A DNA stretch of 64,000 nt from Alistipes sp. (lineage in GTDB: Bacteria > Bacteroidota > Bacteroidia > Bacteroidales > Rikenellaceae). Where the stretch lies: NCBI GenBank assembly GCA_017937765.1, contig JAGBCY010000023.1, positions 47,231 to 111,230 of the forward strand, in the 5' to 3' direction. Position 1 is the first letter of the stretch; every line of letters begins with the position of its first letter. Under the pieces are notes generated by a model. The model made no database searches and was not told the DNA's origin. It was given only the letters and a program-made list of their open reading frames with translations. A program made the translations under genes and the position numbers. Shown here piece by piece: positions 34,017 through 45,380 of the stretch.

Positions 34017-36818
34017 TTACTCGAGCTCGATGCCGTAAGTCTTCTTGATCAACTCCTTAGCGCGGCGGTGGAATGCCTCCGAACCGTGCTCAATCTTCTG
34101 CTCGGGAACAACGCGCGTGTACTCCTTAATCTCGATCGAACGAACAGGCGTGATAGAGTATGCACGCTGCATAGGCACGGGAGCCTCGCCCAACGACTTG
34201 ATAGCAGGAGCGTCGCACTTAGCAACCGATGCGTTAGCCTTTGTGGCTGTGCGAGTTGCGCCCTTACGCGTGAGGACTACGTCGCTACATACGCGAGGTG
34301 ATGTAGGAGTAGCCTGACCATACTGGAGCTGCGTTACGCAAGGATAGTAGATCTCCTGAGCGGCGTTACCCGCAGCATCCTTATAGTTGTAGATGATAGG
34401 CTTGATAGTGATCGTGTTGCGATCCTCCGACACCTCCACGGGGAAGCGTGAGTCGAGCAACAACGAGCCATCCTCGCGGTAAACGGGAGCACCGATATAT
34501 GACTTCTGGCCTACACCAAGCATATAGAACGTGTACTCCAAACCGAAGTTGAAGGTCTCGAGCGGGAACTCGCGCTCGATGTTGATAGGCAACCATACGT
34601 TACCATCGGCATCAATCTCGAGGTTCCACTTAGGACCGAAGTCGTAGAACATATGGCTAACCTTGCTCGACGAGTAATCATCAGCGGTGAAGAGGTCGTA
34701 AGGCGTAGCCACCAAATCCAACATATATGTAGGATCGGTAAGGTCGTAACCGAGGCAGAGGAGGCGGTTGAAGCCACGTGTACGGTTGTTATACTGCTCA
34801 GCCAACTCAACGAACTCCTCCCAGAGAGCATCAGTAGCATCGCGGCTAACGCCCATAGATGCGTAGAGGTCGTAGATCTCCTTAGGCAATGTCTCGGGAT
34901 ACTCCACACCAGCAGCGATAGTTACATCCGAAGTGTAGGTCTCACCGATAGGCAACCAAGCCTGAGCATCAGCATCGTAAGCTGTCATCTCGGCCGAAGC
35001 AACCCACTCACCTACGAGCTCGTCGAAGAGCGGCGAGTTAACGCGTACGGGGTAGTTAGCCTGAGGTGTAGTGTACTCAGCGATAGCAGACGAGCCGGTA
35101 GCGTTGAGGTTGTTGTTCGTACCCTCGTCGTTGTATACGAGCACTACGAGACGTGTTGTGGCGTTCTCGCGGCTTGCTACCGTGAAGTTAAGACCTGCGG
35201 CAGAGTTGATTGCCGAGATCTCGGCCGAGCCAAACTGGTTACCAGCACCCATCGACTTCATAAGTGCGAGGTAGGTGGTATTCTTAAGTGCAGCGTCGAA
35301 CTCACGAACATAGTCGCAAGCGAAGTAAACCTCGTAAGCATCCTTGTTGGGAGCCTTGATGTTGAAGGTTGCGGTGTAAGGATCCGAGCTCTCGACGGGA
35401 GTAACCACGATCTCGGGAGCGGGCTTAGTAACCTCGGGCATAGTGAACTTGTAGGTATCGAATGCCTGAGTCTTACCCTCGTTGTCGCCCATAGATGAGC
35501 AGAGCACACGGATCTCCTTGCCAGCCAAGCCCTTAGTGTCAACGAACCAGTCAGAGAGGTAGATCTCGCTGTCGCCACTCATAACCTGCGAACCGAAGGT
35601 ATAGAGTGCGAAGTACGAGCCGGTGAACCAACGCAAGTACTCCTCGTTGTTGTCGAGCAAGGGGAGGATGTTAACCTGATACTCCGACTCCTCCATAATC
35701 ATCACGTTGTAGAACGCAACATTCTCAGTGGGAGTGAACGAGATGATACCGTCGATAGGACGCAAATCGTAGGTCTTAATCTCCACGCCGCCATCGAGAT
35801 CCTCGGGCTCGAGGGTGTCAACCTGAATACGCTCGTAATAGCCTGTCCAGTACTTCTCCGAGTCGAAAGCATCGGTACCACTCTCATTAGCCCAAGCCGT
35901 CCAGTCGAACATAGGCATATAGTAGCCAGCCTGCCAGCCTGCAGGGTACGACCAGATTGCGTGTGTTACGTAGTCTACGTAGTTAGGATCGCTCTCAGGA
36001 ACGCTAACAACAGATATCTCACCATCCATATATACTACCAACTCATCGGGATCGCCCATATAGCTATACTCACCGATAAGGAAGATGCCGGGCTCGCCGG
36101 GAACCTTCGGGTCAGAGTAGCTTGCGCCATTCTCTACGATGTTGCCATCCTCGTCGCGCTCGTAGCTGTTCTCCTCGTCGTAGCGGATAGTCTTGTCATT
36201 CAAGGTGTACTGCTGAGCGTTGTAGAGAAGCATATCGATCTCCAACGAACCCTCGCTCTTAGCGTAGTTATAGAAAGGAAGCGATGTTGTGGTGTAGCGC
36301 AAAGCGTTGCCGCGAGCCTTAACCTCGGCGGGAACCACCACGTGAACAGCGAAACCATCGTAGCGACGGTCTACAACCGTAAGCGTACCCTCGTAGTTAG
36401 TCGTAGTGAACTCCACCTTGATAACCTCACCATAGAAGCTGTTGTCGCTCTTACGGAATGCGAAGTAGTAGGTGTAGGTAGTAGCTACCTCCTTACCAGT
36501 GATAAGGATGCTTGTGGTTGTCTCAACGGCGGGATCGGCGATAGTCTTAACCTCGCCACCAGCGAAGATTGCCGACTCGGGCAACTCGCCATCAATCTCG
36601 ATGTAAGCGATCTCGCTGATGCCCTCGCTCACGATGTCGATAGTTGCACCACCGGGCTCAACCGATGCCACAGTTACATCAACGGCGGCCTCAACAGGCT
36701 TCTTGTCGTCGCCACCGGTGCCAGGCTTCTCGTCGATGGGATCATCGCCACACGATGCGAGGCACACACCCAAAACGAGCGTCGCAACCGCAAATAAATA
36801 ATGTTTAAAGTTTTTCAT
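34017..36818 (-). CDS. Large surface lipoprotein with fibronectin-like repeats
   Basis: 933 residues from ATG 36818; an upstream extension to 36953 reaches the promoter and lacks a signal peptide. Signal MKNFKHYLFAVATLVLG with the lipobox CLASC. The body is a series of beta-rich modules of about 90-100 residues (VDVTVASVEPGGATIDI; later PAPEIVVTPVESSDPYTATFNI), resembling Ig/fibronectin-III folds. The end is basic with KKTYGIELE. Its style matches two other lipoproteins (40386-42548 and 43404-45380), suggesting one paralogous family. Role unknown; probably outer-membrane, surface-exposed and glycan- or protein-binding. Confidence 0.8.
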   Translation of the reverse strand: MKNFKHYLFAVATLVLGVCLASCGDDPIDEKPGTGGDDKKPVEAAVDVTVASVEPGGATIDIVSEGISEIAYIEIDGELPESAIFAGGEVKTIADPAVETTTSILITGKEVATTYTYYFAFRKSDNSFYGEVIKVEFTTTNYEGTLTVVDRRYDGFAVHVVVPAEVKARGNALRYTTTSLPFYNYAKSEGSLEIDMLLYNAQQYTLNDKTIRYDEENSYERDEDGNIVENGASYSDPKVPGEPGIFLIGEYSYMGDPDELVVYMDGEISVVSVPESDPNYVDYVTHAIWSYPAGWQAGYYMPMFDWTAWANESGTDAFDSEKYWTGYYERIQVDTLEPEDLDGGVEIKTYDLRPIDGIISFTPTENVAFYNVMIMEESEYQVNILPLLDNNEEYLRWFTGSYFALYTFGSQVMSGDSEIYLSDWFVDTKGLAGKEIRVLCSSMGDNEGKTQAFDTYKFTMPEVTKPAPEIVVTPVESSDPYTATFNIKAPNKDAYEVYFACDYVREFDAALKNTTYLALMKSMGAGNQFGSAEISAINSAAGLNFTVASRENATTRLVVLVYNDEGTNNNLNATGSSAIAEYTTPQANYPVRVNSPLFDELVGEWVASAEMTAYDADAQAWLPIGETYTSDVTIAAGVEYPETLPKEIYDLYASMGVSRDATDALWEEFVELAEQYNNRTRGFNRLLCLGYDLTDPTYMLDLVATPYDLFTADDYSSSKVSHMFYDFGPKWNLEIDADGNVWLPINIEREFPLETFNFGLEYTFYMLGVGQKSYIGAPVYREDGSLLLDSRFPVEVSEDRNTITIKPIIYNYKDAAGNAAQEIYYPCVTQLQYGQATPTSPRVCSDVVLTRKGATRTATKANASVAKCDAPAIKSLGEAPVPMQRAYSITPVRSIEIKEYTRVVPEQKIEHGSEAFHRRAKELIKKTYGIELE

Positions 36819-36855
36819 AAAGTTAATAATTTGGTTTTTAATGTGTCTTATTTCG

Positions 36856-37101: not shown

Positions 37102-37305
37102 CTACCTCAGCACCCGCACATTACGGGCCTCCACGCGGCCACCCTCGTCACGAACGATGTCGTACTCCACACGCCAGTTGTGCTTCAGCGTGCGGTAACC
37201 GTCGCGCACAACGGCCGTGAAGTGGACGTATGTATCGACACCATCCTCACCGGTTATGAAGCCATAACCCCGCTTATCGTCAAACCATTTCACCCTGCCG
37301 ACCAT
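37102..37305 (-). CDS. Cold-shock domain protein (CspA family)
   Basis: 67 residues, the standard size for one cold-shock domain. The RNA-binding motifs are present: VKWFDDKRGYGFITGEDG (RNP1 region) and TYVHFTAVV (RNP2 region). It binds single-stranded RNA/DNA and acts as an RNA chaperone. The C-terminal end (GGRVEARNVRVLR) completes the last strand. It has its own minus-strand promoter box. Confidence 0.95.
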   Translation of the reverse strand: MVGRVKWFDDKRGYGFITGEDGVDTYVHFTAVVRDGYRTLKHNWRVEYDIVRDEGGRVEARNVRVLR

Positions 37306-37386: not shown

Positions 37387-37418
37387 TTTGTAGATTCGCA
37401 AAAAATAGCATATATTTG
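37387..37418 (+). promoter_or_regulatory. Promoter of rSAM/lipoprotein operon
   Basis: TTTG at 37387-37390, 20-nt spacer, TATATTTG at 37411-37418; the first ATG is 33 nt downstream. Confidence 0.8.
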
Positions 37419-37451: not shown

Positions 37452-37904
37452 ATGAACGTTAGATGGAAGATTGCACTTTTGACCCTGCTCGGCTTCTCGA
37501 CAGCGGCGTGCTGTAGCACCAAGAAGGCATCGAAGAAGCAGGATAAGGCAGAGACCAATATCGAGGTGGAGGGCGTCGACAACCGCATTATGCTTATGTA
37601 TGGCGTACCTATGCCCGATGGCAGTTTCCCAACGCCTGTTGACGATAACTCGCCCCAGCCCCTGCGTCCTGGAGCTCCGTTCCCCGATGGCCGCCGTGCT
37701 GTGGTTATGACCGAGGAGCGTGCCCTCGAGATTCTCGAGAGCGTAAAGGCCGAGGATGCCGCTGCGGAGCTTATCCGCGAGGTAGATGGCGTTCCCTTCC
37801 CCGATGGTCGCGTGGCTATCGTTATGACCGAGGAGCGTGCCGCCGAGATTATGAAGGCTATCGAGGAGGAGGAGAAGGCTCGCGCCGAGAAGGAGCAACA
37901 GTAA
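37452..37904 (+). CDS. Small lipoprotein of radical-SAM/lipoprotein system
   Basis: 150 residues. Signal peptide with the lipobox TAAC (then CSTKKASKK). The mature part carries three motifs of the form G(V/A)P(M/F)PDG: YGVPMPDG at about 50-57, GAPFPDG and GVPFPDG. The last two are followed by RxAVVMTEERAxEIL-type sequence, so the protein contains two copies of a repeat of about 40 residues. The tail is charged (EEEEKARAEKEQQ). The next gene, 12 nt on, encodes a radical SAM/SPASM enzyme. I recall NCBI families TIGR04134 (lipoprotein) and TIGR04133 (enzyme) for such a pair; this protein is probably the enzyme's substrate. Confidence 0.82.
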   Translation: MNVRWKIALLTLLGFSTAACCSTKKASKKQDKAETNIEVEGVDNRIMLMYGVPMPDGSFPTPVDDNSPQPLRPGAPFPDGRRAVVMTEERALEILESVKAEDAAAELIREVDGVPFPDGRVAIVMTEERAAEIMKAIEEEEKARAEKEQQ

Positions 37905-37916
37905 CCTCGTATCGCT

Positions 37917-38993
37917 GTGAAGGGCAAGAGATTAGGTCTCCGCAAGCGCATAGGTCTTAAACTGTTCAACGAGCTTTACGACGGCGTGGTGGAGCGTCAC
38001 GAGTTGCGTACACTCTTTTGGGAGTGTACGCTTCGTTGTAATCTGAGGTGTAGGCATTGTGGCAGCGACTGCCGCACGGATGCTGCCGAGAGCGATATGC
38101 CGCTCGAGGACTTCCTCCACGTACTCGACCGTGAGGTAACGCCCCACGTCGACCCCAGCCGTGTGCTTATCATCTTCTCGGGTGGCGAGGTGCTCGTGCG
38201 TCACGACCTCGAGGAGGCGGGCCGCGAGGTGACGCGCCGAGGATATATGTGGGGAATGGTGACTAACGGTATGGGCCTCACGCGCGAGCGACTGCGCAGC
38301 CTCGTGGCCGCGGGGCTACGCTCCGTGTCGGTGAGCTTCGACGGCTTCAGCGACATCCACAACCACATACGCCAGAGCCCCTTGAGCTTCGAACGTGCCC
38401 GCGCTGCTGTGGGCTACATCCGTGAGATTGAGGATCTTACCTACGATGTCATCACCTGTGTGACACCGTCGCTGATGCCACGTCTCGAAGAGTGGCGCGA
38501 CTATCTCATCGCCGAGGGTATCACCCACTGGCGCATATTCTCGATATTCCCTGCGGGGCGTGCGAAGAAGGATGAGTCGCTCCACCTCAACGCCGAGCAG
38601 TTCCGCACGCTTATGGAGTTCATCCGCCGTACACGTCGCGAGGGGCGCATAAAGCTGAACTACGCCTGCGAGGGCTTCCTCGGGGGCTACGAGGCCGAGG
38701 TGCGCGACCACTTCTATATGTGCAACGCAGGCGTGTCGGTGGCCTCGATACGTGTGAATGGCGACATATCGGGATGCACGAGCGTGCGCGGTAACTACAC
38801 GCAGGGCAACATCTACCGCGACAGCTTCTGGGATGTGTGGCAAAACCGCTTCGAGCCCTTCCGCAACCGAGAGTGGACTCGCGAGGGCGAGTGCAAGGAT
38901 TGTCGCGTGTGGGAGTTCTGCCGCGGTGGCGGTATGCATCTACGCGACGACGAGGGGCAGCTGATGTACTGCCACTACAATATGTTAAAATAA
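37917..38993 (+). CDS. Radical SAM/SPASM enzyme of rSAM/lipoprotein system
   Basis: 358 residues. The start is GTG 37917; the upstream stop in frame at 37902 leaves no other choice. The radical SAM cluster motif is CNLRCRHC (Cys at positions 1, 5 and 8 of the motif), in the core from about residue 35, with SGGEVLVR as the SAM-binding GGE motif. The C-terminal SPASM-type cysteines (YMCNAG, DISGCTS, ECKDCRVWEFCRGG, YCHYN) would bind a second iron-sulfur cluster. Enzymes of this type modify peptides. No peptidase or exporter is beside it, so the neighbouring lipoprotein is the obvious substrate. Cytoplasmic. Confidence 0.9.
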   Translation: MKGKRLGLRKRIGLKLFNELYDGVVERHELRTLFWECTLRCNLRCRHCGSDCRTDAAESDMPLEDFLHVLDREVTPHVDPSRVLIIFSGGEVLVRHDLEEAGREVTRRGYMWGMVTNGMGLTRERLRSLVAAGLRSVSVSFDGFSDIHNHIRQSPLSFERARAAVGYIREIEDLTYDVITCVTPSLMPRLEEWRDYLIAEGITHWRIFSIFPAGRAKKDESLHLNAEQFRTLMEFIRRTRREGRIKLNYACEGFLGGYEAEVRDHFYMCNAGVSVASIRVNGDISGCTSVRGNYTQGNIYRDSFWDVWQNRFEPFRNREWTREGECKDCRVWEFCRGGGMHLRDDEGQLMYCHYNMLK

Positions 38994-39027
38994 GATTAGG
39001 GGTATCAAGTGATACCCCTAATCTTAT
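38990..39027. terminator. Bidirectional terminator overlapping rSAM stop codon
   Basis: An 18-bp perfect inverted repeat (38990-39007 with 39010-39027) with only a 2-nt centre, so the stem must open slightly to form a loop. It covers the TAA stop and lies 14 nt from the end of the convergent OmpA-type gene. On the minus strand it is followed by TTTTAAC. Confidence 0.8.
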
Positions 39028-39040
39028 CATTATACACAAT

Positions 39041-40240
39041 CTATTTAATTACCACACAGCGGTTTACGGTCGGCGAATCGGGAGAGTTGAAGGCCTTAGC
39101 CGTGTCGCCCACCCACTTCGCGGTGATACGCTCCGCAGCGATGCCTCCGTCGATGAGGTATGCCCTCACAGCCTCGGCGCGCTCCTTCGAGAGCTGCTCG
39201 TTGCGGGCGGCACTTCCCGTCTCCTTATCGGCATAACCCGTAACCACCATCGGGGCCTTGCTCCCCGTCTCCGACTCGATATATCCATCGAGCGTTGCGC
39301 GTGCATAGTCCGAGAGCACGGCCTCGCCAATAGCGAAGAATACGACGCACTCACCCATCTGCACATACTCCGTCACGGGCTTCTTAGCCTTGCAGGCATC
39401 CAAGTCGCTCTTTAGGCGCGTATTCTCCGTCGTGAGGCTCTCGACACGCTTGTTCGCACCCGCCAGACGCTCGCCGTTTATGAGCAATGCCTCCTCCAGC
39501 TCGACGATTGCTGCCAGATAGCCATCGACCTCCACCGCAGGGTACGCCGGCATCCACTCACGCTGGTTGAAGCGGTAGGCCACGCCGAGCGATGCCGAGA
39601 GTGCAAAGGCATAGCGGCCGCCACTCTGAATCTCCTCGGGCAACGACCGCTCGGCAAAGAGCCACGAGCGCAGGTCGAGCTCGATATCCCACTGCGGACT
39701 CACGCGGAACTTGTTGAGCAGGCCCGACGAGAAGGCGAACTCGCCATTATACTCTCCAGCCGACTTCTTGGTCCACGACATTGCCGTATAGCCAAAGCCC
39801 ACGTACGAGATGGCACTATATACACGGTTAGGTCGGTAGCCGCCAATCCAGTTCGACATATTCACGAGGATGTCGCCGTGGGCAAAGATGTATGGCGTCT
39901 TGAAGATGCCATCGCCATAGCTCTGCTTCGCGAACGAGTAGTTCTGGAACTCGCCGCCGTCGACCTGCAAACGCATACCGACGATGGGCACCACCCACTT
40001 CGTGAGGCTCACGTTGGCATTCCAGCCCACACGGTCGAGGAACTTACCCGGGTCCTTATCACCGCGGTTAGCCACCTGGAGCATAGAGCCGCCACCCGCG
40101 ACACTAATCTCCCAATTATCCCAAAAACGGTTTGTCTCGTATCCCTGCCAGCGCAACGGGCTACGCTGCTCCTGCGCAACGGCATCGGTTGCCGACATCA
40201 ACGACATCGCCACAACAACACTCAGTAAAATCTTTTTCAT
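39041..40240 (-). CDS. OmpA-family outer-membrane protein
   Basis: 399 residues with a signal peptide (AVAQEQRSPLR). The N-terminal part (about 25-240) is a predicted beta-barrel of strands such as WEISVAGGGSMLQVA and GIGFGY-type sections. A coiled-coil-like linker (about 245-285: EELLING..NKRVESLTTENTRLKSDLDACKAK) leads to the C-terminal OmpA domain (about 295-399: GYADKETGSAARNEQLSKERAEAVRAYL), which binds peptidoglycan. It tethers the outer membrane to the cell wall. The final C-V-V-I-K end is typical. Monocistronic. Confidence 0.92.
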   Translation of the reverse strand: MKKILLSVVVAMSLMSATDAVAQEQRSPLRWQGYETNRFWDNWEISVAGGGSMLQVANRGDKDPGKFLDRVGWNANVSLTKWVVPIVGMRLQVDGGEFQNYSFAKQSYGDGIFKTPYIFAHGDILVNMSNWIGGYRPNRVYSAISYVGFGYTAMSWTKKSAGEYNGEFAFSSGLLNKFRVSPQWDIELDLRSWLFAERSLPEEIQSGGRYAFALSASLGVAYRFNQREWMPAYPAVEVDGYLAAIVELEEALLINGERLAGANKRVESLTTENTRLKSDLDACKAKKPVTEYVQMGECVVFFAIGEAVLSDYARATLDGYIESETGSKAPMVVTGYADKETGSAARNEQLSKERAEAVRAYLIDGGIAAERITAKWVGDTAKAFNSPDSPTVNRCVVIK

Positions 40241-40385: not shown

Positions 40386-42548
40386 TTAGCGTGTTGCGTT
40401 GAGTGTAGTAACCTCGGGCTCCACGCACTTAGTCTCGAAAGTCATCTCCGAAGCCTTCACGCGGTTAGACTTCACCACGCGGTTCGAGATGCTTGCATCA
40501 ACCTCGATAACGTTGCTGTTCTTCTCAGCCACGGGAGCCTCCGATACTACGAGGCTCTGGAGCGAACCGCCGCCATTGTGCCAAGAGTTCCACCAGCCAA
40601 CGAAGTCCTCAGCGGGACGAACGCCGTCGTAAGAGGGAACGTACTCACGCTTGAAGAGCTTGCTGTACTGACCGTTAACGTCAACAACGATAGCAACGAT
40701 CACATAGCGACCACCCCAGTTGAGCATTGTGTAGGTGTCGGTAGTAGAGTATGAACCGTGAGTCTCGATCTGCCAGATAAGACCTGAGAGATACTGCGAA
40801 TCGTCGTACTCGTCGTAGCGACCTGTCCAGTCGTAAATCTCAAGGAAGTAGTCACCGTGGTTCTTCTTCGAGAACTCGATTGAGAGGGGCACGATAGCTA
40901 CGCCGCTATAAGAGTCGTTACCGAAGAACTCGAGACCGGGCTCCATAGAGATATCAGCGGGATCGTAGTAGCCGAGGTCCTTCAACGTGATATCAACCTC
41001 ACCGGGAGCATCCGACTTAGTTCTGAACGTTGTGGTCCAGAGCTGAGTGGTAACAACGCCACCATAGAGACCGAAAACATAGGCTACGTACTCGGTATCG
41101 GGCTTGATGTTGCTATACGAGATAGTGTGGTCGCCCCACATATACTCGAGAGCAAAGTTGTTCTTGATGTAGTTCATACGAGCGGTGTCGTTATTACCAA
41201 ACGTATTCCACTCATCAGCAGTAGCGATATGCGTTACATAAGCGTGGCGGTAGTTATCCTCGCTCTTATCGTACGTAGCCTCGATGTTAACCGATGCGCG
41301 GTAAGCCGTGATGTCATCAACCGAGATAGAGATCTGGTTATCAGAGGGCTCCACTGCACCCGTTGTGAACTTCACGAACTGAGGAGTAGTCACGCAGAGA
41401 GCGTTCTCGTCCATATTGAACGCGAAGAGGTAGTAGTTGGTGTTGGCCAAGAGATCGTATGACCACTGGCTACGAGGTCTGCCCGTTGCGCTATCGGTAC
41501 CCTGGCAAGTGTTCTGTGCCACGATATCGTAGGTCGAGTAGCCATCGTTGTGGTACATATTACCAACGATGTTTGCCCACCACTTCTTGATATACTCCTC
41601 CTTAGTGTAACCAACCGACTCAGCGTAGTTGAGCTCAGCCTCCGACATTACGTCGAAGTAGTAGTCAACGTCGGTCGACGACTTAACATCGGTGTGAACG
41701 CGAGGGCCAATGATCTCGTGGTCGAAGGTAAAGTAGTTAGCATCAACATCCTGCATTGCGGGGTGATCAACCGTAATCTCGAAGCGCGAGATATCCGAGA
41801 GTAAAGCACCCGAGTCGTAGTCGAAGTAGTAGCAGTAGAAGATGTAAGTCTCACCGGGGATAGCCTTACCAACGGTCAAGTTACGCACGTCGCCCATCTT
41901 AGCACGATCCTGCATAATCTCAACTGCCGTCATACCGTGGAACGAGCCAAGATACTCGAAGTAAGAGTAATCATCCTCGTATAGTGCCTGATCAGATTCG
42001 AGCTCCCACTCTGCAATATAGCTGGGCGATGCCGACATCACGATGTAGGGCAACTGCTTGTTTGAGGGGAATACGTTTACGGTAAACGTGAAGAAATCGC
42101 TGCCGGTCTCAACCTTCTCAACAGAGAAAGTAGCATTGGTCATAGCACCCTGCTTAACAACAAACGTTACATCCTCAGCAAAACGGTAGCTTACGGTAAC
42201 AAGTGTCTCACGCTCAACATCACCATCGTTAGGAGCAACCTTGAAACTAATAGCACCACTGATTGTTGTATCAAAATCGTAGACCCACTCCTCTGCAGCT
42301 ACTGCACTAAGCTTCTCGCCCTGGTGTGCGTTCTCAATCTCATACTCAATGAGATACGAACCACCTGACACAGCAGCCGTCACCGTTTTCTTAGCAAGAC
42401 GGATCGTAGCATCCTTCTCTACGGGAGGCGGAACCACAGGCTGATTGCCATCATCCACATTGTCAGGAGTCTCACCACAACCTGCCAAGAGGGCAACGCT
42501 AACGAGGGACATTAGTCCCATCAACAGAAAATTCTTGAAATTTCTCAT
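40386..42548 (-). CDS. BACON-like surface lipoprotein, paralog of the gene at 43404
   Basis: 720 residues. Signal MRNFKNFLLMGLMSLVSVALL with the lipobox LAGC. After a Pro-rich spacer, residues about 45-130 look like a BACON domain (ATIRLAKKTVTAAVSGGSYLIEYEI ending VKQG), then several Ig/Fn3-like modules. It shares with the protein at 43404 a SNKQLPYIV/RDMEMPYIV block, a DDYSYF/DDYNYF block and YVFGLYGGVVTT/LIFGYYGGVITT. No enzyme motif is seen. Probably on the outer membrane, perhaps binding carbohydrate. The two genes are divergently transcribed from a repeat-rich spacer. Confidence 0.78.
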   Translation of the reverse strand: MRNFKNFLLMGLMSLVSVALLAGCGETPDNVDDGNQPVVPPPVEKDATIRLAKKTVTAAVSGGSYLIEYEIENAHQGEKLSAVAAEEWVYDFDTTISGAISFKVAPNDGDVERETLVTVSYRFAEDVTFVVKQGAMTNATFSVEKVETGSDFFTFTVNVFPSNKQLPYIVMSASPSYIAEWELESDQALYEDDYSYFEYLGSFHGMTAVEIMQDRAKMGDVRNLTVGKAIPGETYIFYCYYFDYDSGALLSDISRFEITVDHPAMQDVDANYFTFDHEIIGPRVHTDVKSSTDVDYYFDVMSEAELNYAESVGYTKEEYIKKWWANIVGNMYHNDGYSTYDIVAQNTCQGTDSATGRPRSQWSYDLLANTNYYLFAFNMDENALCVTTPQFVKFTTGAVEPSDNQISISVDDITAYRASVNIEATYDKSEDNYRHAYVTHIATADEWNTFGNNDTARMNYIKNNFALEYMWGDHTISYSNIKPDTEYVAYVFGLYGGVVTTQLWTTTFRTKSDAPGEVDITLKDLGYYDPADISMEPGLEFFGNDSYSGVAIVPLSIEFSKKNHGDYFLEIYDWTGRYDEYDDSQYLSGLIWQIETHGSYSTTDTYTMLNWGGRYVIVAIVVDVNGQYSKLFKREYVPSYDGVRPAEDFVGWWNSWHNGGGSLQSLVVSEAPVAEKNSNVIEVDASISNRVVKSNRVKASEMTFETKCVEPEVTTLNATR

Positions 42549-43403: not shown

Positions 43404-45380
43404 ATGAGAAATTTTTCACTACTCTATGCCCTGATGATCCTTATGGGCGTTGCTACATTTGTAGGATGTACCGAGGACACACCCCAGACACAGACTCCCC
43501 CCGATCAGGTGACCCCACGCCTACTGCTCAGCACACAGAGCGTCGACGTTGAGGCCGATGGCGGCAACTACTCCGTGGGCTATGCTCTCGAGAATGGCTA
43601 CGACGGCATCGGCATACAGATAGCCTGCGACAATCAGTGGATTACGAACATCACCACCGACGAGAATACCATCGCTTTTGATGTCGCAACCAACGCCGAC
43701 ACTGCACCCCGAACCGCAGAGCTTATGGTTAAGTATCCCGGCATCGAGTCGGTGGTAATCACCGTGGTACAGAGGGCTAACGAGAAGTTCTTCGAGATGG
43801 CCATCTCGAACGAGACCTCGACGAGCTGCCAGTCGACCGTCCTGCCGCGCGATATGGAGATGCCATATATCGTCTATCTGGCAGAGGTTGACTACTTTGC
43901 AGCTGCGGGTATCACCACAGCCGAGGAGCTCTTCGCCGACGACTACAACTACTTCACAAGCCTTGCCGAGGAGTATGACTCGAACCTCGGTCAGTTTATG
44001 ATGATCAATCAGATATCGTTTATCGGACAGAGCGACATCAGCTGGACGGGTATGACACCCAATAAGGAGTATGTGCTCTACGCCTATGGTATCGAGTTCA
44101 ATAATGATATGACCGACTACACGATGGCAACGCCCATATCATATATGATGGTGACGCTCGAGAGTGGCACATTGCGCACCGTGGAGTTCGATGTCACGGT
44201 GACGGTTGATGGTCCCGAGGTCTTCTACGAGTTTGAGCCTATCAACTGGGACGGTAAGTACTACATCGACATCTACGCCGAGGGCGACTACCTCTACATC
44301 CCCGAGGGCGAGAGTCCCAGTGCAGAGTATAGCCAACTCGTTGTGGATAACTGGCTTGCGATGATGAACCAGTATATGATGTCGGGCTATTCTGGCGAGC
44401 AGCTCATCAACATTATGTGTCTCCAGGGCCACGACTCTTATACCGAGATTCGCGAGGCTGACCGCCGATATATGATGTCGTTCTACGCCATTGACCTCGT
44501 CGATGGCATCCCACAGGTCGTATCGCACCCCTACATCGTGCACTTCAAGACCGACCCCGTGTTGGCGTCGGATATGACCTTCGATGTGGATCTTAGCAAC
44601 GTATATACGCGTGTTGCCGACATACGTATCACCCCCTCAGCAAACGACCCCTACACCGTTGCTTTGGTACTCTCGGATCAGGTTCCCGAGGGTAGCAACG
44701 AGGAGATAATCAAGTGGGTAACAGACTCATTCTATGTATCGCTCTTCGAGGGCGAGATTGTCACACACGTCAACACGCTCGATCCCGAGACCGACTACTC
44801 GTTGCTTATCTTCGGCTACTACGGTGGCGTCATCACAACAGACCTCACACGCATCGACTTTAAGACCGACCCCGAGAGCGAGTGCGAGAACAGCGTCGTG
44901 CGCGTCGACTTCTTAGGTCCATACAGTCCTATGGAGCTTGCAAGCCGTTTCCCTGATATTCTGAATGGTATGGAGGCTATGTATGAGCAGTATGGCTTCT
45001 ACGTTATGTGGGCCGAGATCATCACCGAGAAGCCCTCGCAGGATGTGTTCTTCTTCCACTACGACGAGAGCGAGATGGCCCTCGGCGATGGTTACGTCTT
45101 CAACGACTTGATTATGTACCCCTCTACACAAATTGCTACGCTCACGGCACGCTCGGGCGTTGAGTTTACGATGTGCGGCGTCACGATGGACTACCGTGGT
45201 AATTATAGCGAGATGTGGAAGTCGGAGCCGTTTATGTATGAGTATAACGAGGAGACGAAGCGTCCTATCGAGGAGTTTATCGCTAAGTTCAACACGCCAA
45301 ATACGTCCGGTAAGATGCTGCTCGTAGCACCCGGCGAGCGCGCAGCTAAGGAGCAGACACTAAGCGTGATGAAGCTCTAA
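43404..45380 (+). CDS. BACON-like surface lipoprotein
   Basis: 658 residues. Signal MRNFSLLYALMILMGVATF with the lipobox VGC. A BACON-like domain (about 38-125: RLLLSTQSVDVEADGGNYSVGY, ending ITVVQRANE) precedes Ig/Fn3-type modules, with Asp/Tyr-rich strands. It is clearly related to the lipoprotein on the other strand at 40386-42548. Such lipoproteins often bind mucin or dietary glycans in gut Bacteroidota, but no SusC/SusD pair or glycosidase is beside these genes, so the role is open. A perfect terminator follows. Confidence 0.78.
   Translation: MRNFSLLYALMILMGVATFVGCTEDTPQTQTPPDQVTPRLLLSTQSVDVEADGGNYSVGYALENGYDGIGIQIACDNQWITNITTDENTIAFDVATNADTAPRTAELMVKYPGIESVVITVVQRANEKFFEMAISNETSTSCQSTVLPRDMEMPYIVYLAEVDYFAAAGITTAEELFADDYNYFTSLAEEYDSNLGQFMMINQISFIGQSDISWTGMTPNKEYVLYAYGIEFNNDMTDYTMATPISYMMVTLESGTLRTVEFDVTVTVDGPEVFYEFEPINWDGKYYIDIYAEGDYLYIPEGESPSAEYSQLVVDNWLAMMNQYMMSGYSGEQLINIMCLQGHDSYTEIREADRRYMMSFYAIDLVDGIPQVVSHPYIVHFKTDPVLASDMTFDVDLSNVYTRVADIRITPSANDPYTVALVLSDQVPEGSNEEIIKWVTDSFYVSLFEGEIVTHVNTLDPETDYSLLIFGYYGGVITTDLTRIDFKTDPESECENSVVRVDFLGPYSPMELASRFPDILNGMEAMYEQYGFYVMWAEIITEKPSQDVFFFHYDESEMALGDGYVFNDLIMYPSTQIATLTARSGVEFTMCGVTMDYRGNYSEMWKSEPFMYEYNEETKRPIEEFIAKFNTPNTSGKMLLVAPGERAAKEQTLSVMKL

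Follow-up and report, generated by a model that had tools for sequence, protein, structure and literature searches.

A lipoprotein paired with a TIGR04133 radical SAM enzyme in Alistipes and its candidate X-Tyr-Gly modification site

What does a radical S-adenosylmethionine (SAM) enzyme do beside the gene of a small lipoprotein? The question is raised by two adjacent genes in a 64,000-nucleotide stretch of an Alistipes sp. genome (assembly GCA_017937765.1, contig JAGBCY010000023.1, positions 47,231 to 111,230 of the forward strand), called the window below and numbered from its first letter. An open reading frame (ORF) call gives a lipoprotein of 150 amino acids (aa), the proposed protein substrate (37452..37904, + strand), and 12 bases further on begins, with a GTG start, a 358-aa radical SAM/SPASM enzyme (37917..38993, +) of the NCBIfam family TIGR04133 "rSAM_w_lipo" (568.3 bits, cut-off 425). 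A prediction made earlier from the sequence had noted three G(V/A)P(M/F)PDG motifs and two MTEERA repeats in a lipoprotein beside a SPASM enzyme, which the ORFs, their translation, and Pfam confirm. It overlooked Met49-Tyr50-Gly51, an invariant stretch that overlaps the first PDG motif. The comparisons reported here suggest that the enzyme may excise a portion of the tyrosine at this Met-Tyr-Gly spot, so that a reactive ketone stays behind.

The X-Tyr-Gly motif in partners of TIGR04133 enzymes

The window lipoprotein has a signal peptide (aa 1-19) and a lipid-bearing Cys20. Its proposed modification site, Met49-Tyr50-Gly51 (X-Y-G; 37596..37604, +), is followed by Val-Pro. In alignments M49, Y50, and G51 are invariant in 29/29 and, separately, in 19/19 lipoproteins. 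Among the 29, V52, P53, and P55 are conserved at 97%, D56 at 79%, and G57 at 93%. K6, L13, G14, S16, and C20 are invariant among the 19 aligned lipoproteins, and the signal peptide residues L13, G14, and S16 among the 29 as well.

The partner survey took the 80 top-ranking enzyme loci in the genome collection and covered the same-strand ORFs beside each enzyme. Control ORFs were taken more than 2.5 kb from the enzyme, with a size-matched set for the ranking of patterns. Under a fixed filter, YG.P was found near the enzyme at 76/80 loci (151 sites in 76,468 residues); the far ORFs contained 21 sites in 207,680 residues. When every three-letter pattern with a span of at most five residues was counted, YG.P came first, with 76 loci near the enzyme and 6/80 in the size-matched far set. 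Three of the four loci missed by the filter hold X-Y-G (L024 VLYGVRRP, L078 LMYGVRMP, and L074 CTYGPPP, the last missed through the ORF filter), and at the fourth, L028, the contig begins inside the enzyme. On inspection X-Y-G is therefore present in the partners of 79/79 assessable loci.

The proteins that carry the motif are apparently unrelated and not one family. They include short Alistipes lipoproteins (LMYGVP), TIGR04134 lipoproteins (MYGQP, CEYGSP, and, in the source genome of the window, CYGIP and AYGTP), rumen lipoproteins in which REGACVYGSPE is repeated, and a protein of Bacteroides and Muribaculaceae that is encoded downstream and lacks a lipobox (YGGP or YGPPP). At the level of sequence, X-Tyr-Gly, mostly as X-Y-G-x-P, is shown to be the common feature of TIGR04133 partners, which are mostly lipoproteins. 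Among 121 distinct sites, a set that required a Pro past YG and that contains a small number of chance ORFs, X is V (39), M (31), L (15), I (12), E (6), or Y (5), and Pro stands two residues past Gly in 100; 37 Alistipes-type ORFs enter this count, 26 with a lipoprotein signal and 11 other or chance ORFs. The signal peptides are also alike: of 63 distinct ones from partners, 52 have L[GA][FLI] ahead of the Cys, versus 8 of 37 other lipoprotein-like ORFs, some of which look like partners themselves.

The original prediction took the PDG repeats as the target, and this did not survive the comparison. The first motif, GVPMPDG (aa 51-57; 37602..37622, +), overlaps the X-Y-G site, while the copies GAPFPDG (aa 74-80; 37671..37691, +) and GVPFPDG (aa 113-119; 37788..37808, +) have no Tyr. 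MTEERA occurs at aa 86-91 (37707..37724, +) and aa 125-130 (37824..37841, +). That the PDG repeats, and MTEERA, are the modified sites finds some support in the repetition and conservation of PDG among Alistipes-type proteins, as seen at P55, D56, and G57: all 26 lipoproteins with an LG(F/L)S signal carry copies of P(D/E/N)G or EDG. The copy number varies from 1 to 4, however, P.PDG was flagged in the 80-locus survey only at Alistipes-type loci, and eight related lipoproteins (those of L025 and L192-L198) keep X-Y-G with zero P(D/E/N)G. PDG was rejected as the target because X-Y-G is kept where PDG is absent, and we consider it highly improbable that these repeats are the modified residues. 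Since all 26 have copies but the eight X-Y-G relatives have none, the first PDG is, as judged from the alignments, a feature that accompanies the X-Y-G site locally.

A second set comprised 47 further loci of a second enzyme type, that is, all other enzyme copies of the sampled genus. A YG..P hit was found within 1.4 kb upstream at 37/47, those of L167 and L182 being fortuitous, and an X-Y-G lipoprotein is present at 41/47 overall. It lies farther upstream at L167 (CYGVEY) and, beyond a second radical SAM gene, at L160, L161, L164, L171, and L179. L150, L163, and L176 are cut by contig ends. Four further window-type loci, L195-L198, all read MYGV.

The second radical SAM gene just mentioned (341-350 aa, CNQxCxFCYNxFKG) lies just upstream within the cluster at no fewer than nine of the 47 loci, at least L157, L160, L161, L164, L167, L171, L176, L179, and L182. 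That of L160, the sole one tested, had a best NCBIfam score of 93.5 bits, far below a cut-off of 400.

Relation of the enzyme to PlpX spliceases

TIGR04133 is a family that NCBI has named and whose function is uncharacterised. The window enzyme also matches the Pfam families Radical_SAM (59 bits, cut-off 29.5) and SPASM (36.5 bits, cut-off 21.5). Its C41-x3-C45-x2-C48 and the SPASM-region cysteines 269, 287, 326, 329, 335, and 352 are invariant in 39 and 36 aligned sequences. A possible clue to its chemistry comes from another NCBI class, TIGR04103 (nif11-class radical SAM maturase 3), of which we take the splicease PlpX to be a member. A Nostoc plasmid gene is annotated "nif11-class peptide radical SAM maturase 3" (TIGR04103), and its Nif11 precursor ends in ALYGLPPELF. 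The partners of two TIGR04133 enzymes read LLYGVPPVDF (L032) and LLYGVPPRNF (L038).

In the papers on this system, X-Tyr-Gly is the excision motif of PlpX, the native sites of PlpXY are MYG and LYG (PMC10533398, PMC11002830), and PlpY is the partner that serves as RiPP recognition element (RRE), RiPP standing for ribosomally synthesised and post-translationally modified peptide (PMC11002830). PMC10533398 further states that a minimal ten-residue PlpA2 core tag is spliceable without a leader, and that many insertion sites in FtsZ failed. The products, spliceotides, are termed protease inhibitors in PMC11117315.

An enzyme tree was built from 45 enzymes; L038, L109, and L143 were dropped before the tree and the signature count, and L102 had no enzyme ORF for this set. 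A branch with 97/97 support holds 33 of the 45: TIGR04133, the Nostoc PlpX-class enzyme, TIGR03913, the enzymes of L089 and L135, and the groups f19 and f19b. NirJ, AhbD-like enzymes, TIGR04053, TIGR04347, MftC, and PqqE fall outside it. TIGR04133 forms a group of 19 rows (100/100). Residues E36, G49, S50, W205, G253, and S289 are present in 19/19 TIGR04133 enzymes and in 7/7 of the other enzymes paired with X-Y-G; for E259 the counts are 19/19 and 6/7. Among the 12 outgroup enzymes, E36, G49, S50, W205, G253, S289, and E259 are found in 3, 0, 2, 1, 2, 0, and 0. G49 and E259 are absent from 4/4 f19b enzymes. So far as tree and alignment go, TIGR04133 is thus shown to sit on one branch with the PlpX splicease class and to have sequence signatures in common with it.

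The window system resembles PlpXY in its X-Tyr-Gly site, the supported common branch, HCGS, and Glu259. It differs in that its substrate is a lipoprotein, whereas PlpXY precursors have a Nif11 or nitrile-hydratase-like leader, in having no plpY-like gene and no gene for a peptidase or exporter next to it, and in an identity of 28% to the Nostoc member. The TIGR03913 "GDL motif" radical SAM systems share the branch, and their DUF1843 peptides contain MPYGVAI, VLYGVGI, MLYGGAM, and PYGAGI; unlike the window lipoprotein, these partners are about 56-64 aa long and lack a lipobox, and some read LYAAGI or MYMATM. The TIGR03913-type systems may be spliceases too. The TIGR03913-type peptides of L094, L120, L133, and L136 (DUF1843 or DUF1843-like) carry X-Y-G, X-Y-A, or X-Y-M near the N-terminus.

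The radical SAM/SPASM enzyme of L089, from the same order, lies between the families (TIGR03913 233, TIGR04103 218, TIGR04133 178 bits). Its neighbour, a protein of 214 aa in which KYGYP occurs six times (L089:3003-3647; also at L117), looks like a multi-site splicease substrate.

Several observations weigh against a splicease function of the window enzyme. The branch that leads to TIGR04133 is a long one (2.15), and the enzyme is 28% identical to the Nostoc PlpX-class enzyme versus 21-27% to outgroups, so the reaction may have changed. Other profiles score alike: TIGR03913 120, AhbD 118, NirJ2 115, and TIGR04053 113 bits, with TIGR04103 at 111, and membership of TIGR04103 itself is not supported (111.4 bits, cut-off 725). 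No plpY-like RRE gene was found beside the enzyme, a result that covers the adjacent genes only. At 2/47 second-type loci X-Y-A replaces X-Y-G, at L182 no X-Y-G lipoprotein was found within the fetched stretch, and at L194 a window-type lipoprotein has no enzyme within the fetched stretch. X-Y-G alone is no proof, because control loci show it too (for this count L102, L103, and L138 had no enzyme ORF). AhbD-like controls have GPYG(V/N)P at 10/11 loci, within one homologous neighbour of 444-482 aa, which is probably a single shared chance event. In a plasmid outgroup YG...P occurs at 1/5 assessable loci, within the neighbouring radical SAM protein. Within the branch, two groups lack a clear X-Y-G partner. 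An X-Y-G ORF (V(R/Q)YGRP) was found at 2/6 f19b loci, these ORFs being 44 and 47 aa long, about 0.75 kb downstream, and not shown to be genes. In f19, L124 has LLYGTPP and its homologue in L123/L098 reads LYM. Finally, excision of tyramine at X-Y-G is a chemistry predicted from sequence alone, and a role of the product as an inhibitor would follow by analogy with the spliceotides.

The two X-Y-A lipoproteins are TIGR04134-like: CYACP is found in L170:2589-2972 (27.7 bits, below the cut-off) and CYAMP in L184:2649-3035 (42.4 bits, over it). The neighbour with GPYG(V/N)P is a cytochrome-like protein, and the AhbD-like loci in question are L100, L101, L104-L108, L110, L111, and L113.

Proposed reaction and its alternatives

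On balance the reading that we lean towards, with somewhat better than even confidence, is that of a lipoprotein with a dedicated radical SAM maturase, in which tyramine is excised at X-Y-G and a ketoamide is left on the anchored protein. The TIGR04133 enzyme would excise tyramine at Met49-Tyr50-Gly51 before export, which would create a ketoamide (an alpha-keto-beta-amino acid) at Met49. The modified protein would then be exported and anchored through Cys20, and its electrophilic ketoamide would stand some 30 residues away from the membrane. Again by analogy with spliceotides, the protein would most likely serve as a tethered, reversible-covalent protease inhibitor. The preference for V, M, L, or I at X would suit elastase-like targets.

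Given that no plpY-like RRE gene adjoins and that the enzyme N-terminus has only 30 residues and one helix before the barrel, too short for a fused RRE, the enzyme would find the lipoprotein through a short motif. The anaerobic sulfatase-maturating enzyme recognises its protein in such a way. It differs from the window enzyme in its motif, in its product if the splicing reading holds, and in sequence (17-18% identity). Extended to the whole family, the proposal is more tentative and falls slightly short of an even chance: TIGR04133 enzymes would be stand-alone spliceases, with neither leader nor RRE partner, that act on exported, mostly lipidated proteins, and Bacteroidales envelopes would carry tethered ketoamides that trap proteases or other nucleophiles.

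The enzyme could also act on X-Y-G through another radical reaction, such as a C-C or C-O crosslink, epimerisation, or oxidation of the Tyr side chain, with no excision. The long stem and low identity noted above would fit a changed reaction. Enzymes that form three-residue cyclophanes use an aromatic-x-x core and the side chain of its third residue. Counted from Tyr50, the third residue of the window lipoprotein is Val, but Gly stands there in 8/121 distinct sites (YGGP; partners of L059, L075, L076, and L079), and a crosslink from Tyr to the third residue requires a side chain. Thioether chemistry was rejected, as no constant Cys is found near the site among the aligned lipoproteins. The near-identity of LYGLPP in the PlpX-class partner and LYGVPP in TIGR04133 partners favours a shared chemistry. 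A different reaction at X-Y-G is quite possible, if less likely than excision.

Another alternative leaves the lipoprotein out: the enzyme would act on some other protein or on a small molecule, with the lipoprotein no more than a co-transcribed neighbour. Several lipoproteins or a second radical SAM gene are present at some loci, and the nearest solved structure by sequence is that of Cytosylglucuronate decarboxylase (2e-10). All such matches are weak, many SPASM enzymes score alike in a fold comparison, and no chain named PlpX or splicease was among the nine sequences listed by the structure search. Partner side and type change between loci, but X-Y-G stays. Among 101 genomes sampled from the genus, 65 contain a window-type lipoprotein; in 62 of them the best lipoprotein hit is directly followed, on its own strand, by a TIGR04133 gene, with a median gap of 60 bases between the hits. 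The three exceptions are L192 with a 230-aa enzyme ORF, L193 at a contig end, and L194 without an enzyme in the fetched stretch. The pairing makes a different target unlikely. It upholds the original prediction that the two genes are conserved together, and, as that prediction had also proposed, the enzyme most likely modifies the lipoprotein.

The splicing reading gives a named family without a function, present over the cut-off in 76/101 sampled genomes of the genus (110 hits), one exact prediction: a loss of 135.07 Da at Met-Tyr-Gly. If it is true, backbone splicing to ketoamides would extend beyond secreted peptides to proteins that gut Bacteroidales anchor in the membrane, and TIGR04133 enzymes, for which no adjacent RRE partner was seen, could be used as tools that put ketones into proteins.

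The pairing of lipoprotein and enzyme is not new. The original prediction called the system undescribed, which is too strong, given the NCBI names TIGR04133 "rSAM_w_lipo" and TIGR04134 "lipo_with_rSAM". The window matches these systems in that its enzyme is a TIGR04133 member with the lipoprotein directly upstream; unlike them, its lipoprotein is not a TIGR04134 member, being short and carrying PDG repeats. Searches of the open literature on TIGR04133, spliceases, and radical SAM-associated lipoproteins gave no title or abstract start that treats these lipoproteins and no link between TIGR04133 and X-Y-G splicing. Scott et al. 2022 (Chem) may cover this link: its title reportedly mentions "peptides and proteins", so it may overlap with the splicing reading.

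The two-gene locus and its surroundings

The lipoprotein and enzyme genes look like a two-gene unit, on the evidence of a promoter match, a hairpin at the enzyme stop codon, and flanking genes on the other strand. The promoter match, TTTG-N20-TATATTTG (37387..37418, +), lies 5' of the lipoprotein gene and was found by a pattern search with a Bacteroidetes-type consensus. The window contains 8 matches versus 0.29 expected, and 8 were reached in 0/100 shuffles. A sigma-70 scan gave no useful promoter result. The hairpin (38990..39027, +; 17 pairs) was found by folding, spans the enzyme stop codon, and is the likely terminator of the pair; its energy is -26.2 kcal/mol (z -8.54), an equally good fold occurred in 0/200 shuffles, and a consensus terminator scan of the window did not list it. 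The flanking genes, both on the opposite strand, encode a cold-shock protein (37102-37305, -) and an OmpA-like protein (39041-40240, -). No peptidase or exporter gene adjoins the pair (immediate neighbours, by ORFs and Pfam/NCBIfam). A RiPP cluster of that kind was accordingly rejected, as the original prediction had held.

A cold-shock-domain gene similar to 37102-37305 was found within 2.5 kb upstream at 17 of 26 Alistipes-type loci. Three large lipoprotein-like proteins are encoded near the pair: 34017-36821 (-) and 40386-42548 (-), with no Pfam/NCBIfam match at 0.001, and 43404-45380 (+), with a weak BACON match under the Pfam cut-off.

The window lipoprotein matched no family in NCBIfam (up to E 10) or Pfam (up to 0.001), with no match at all to TIGR04134 (39.8-bit cut-off), and its assignment to that or another named family was rejected. 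Its structure model is of low confidence, with a mean pLDDT (predicted local distance difference test) of 68.5, a pTM (predicted template modelling score) of 0.24, and two C-terminal helices. The signals for surface export that follow the lipidated Cys in Bacteroidetes are acidic. The residues from the lipid-bearing Cys onwards, CSTKKASKK, are basic and by their sequence do not resemble such signals. The surface location put forward in the original prediction is therefore at most tentative.

The closest relatives of the enzyme are in metagenome-assembled genomes of Alistipes/Rikenellaceae. Of 395 evenly sampled Bacteroidota genomes, only 3, including the source genome of the window, have a match that exceeds the TIGR04133 cut-off; among the matches listed, those over the cut-off and the best of those below it were inspected. 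A different contig of the source genome carries a second TIGR04133 gene, upstream of which are two TIGR04134-like lipoproteins, one over the TIGR04134 cut-off (67.5 bits) and one below it (25.2 bits).

A perfect 11-pair hairpin lies inside the enzyme gene (38006-38031, +), over the codons for RTLFWECTLR. It is kept in 8/8 close relatives compared, with variation mostly at loop wobble positions. The 11 pairs are also present in L134 (P. distasonis) and L087, among further rows, and the hairpin fades with distance. It could control the level of enzyme relative to lipoprotein, or it could merely reflect a conserved protein motif.

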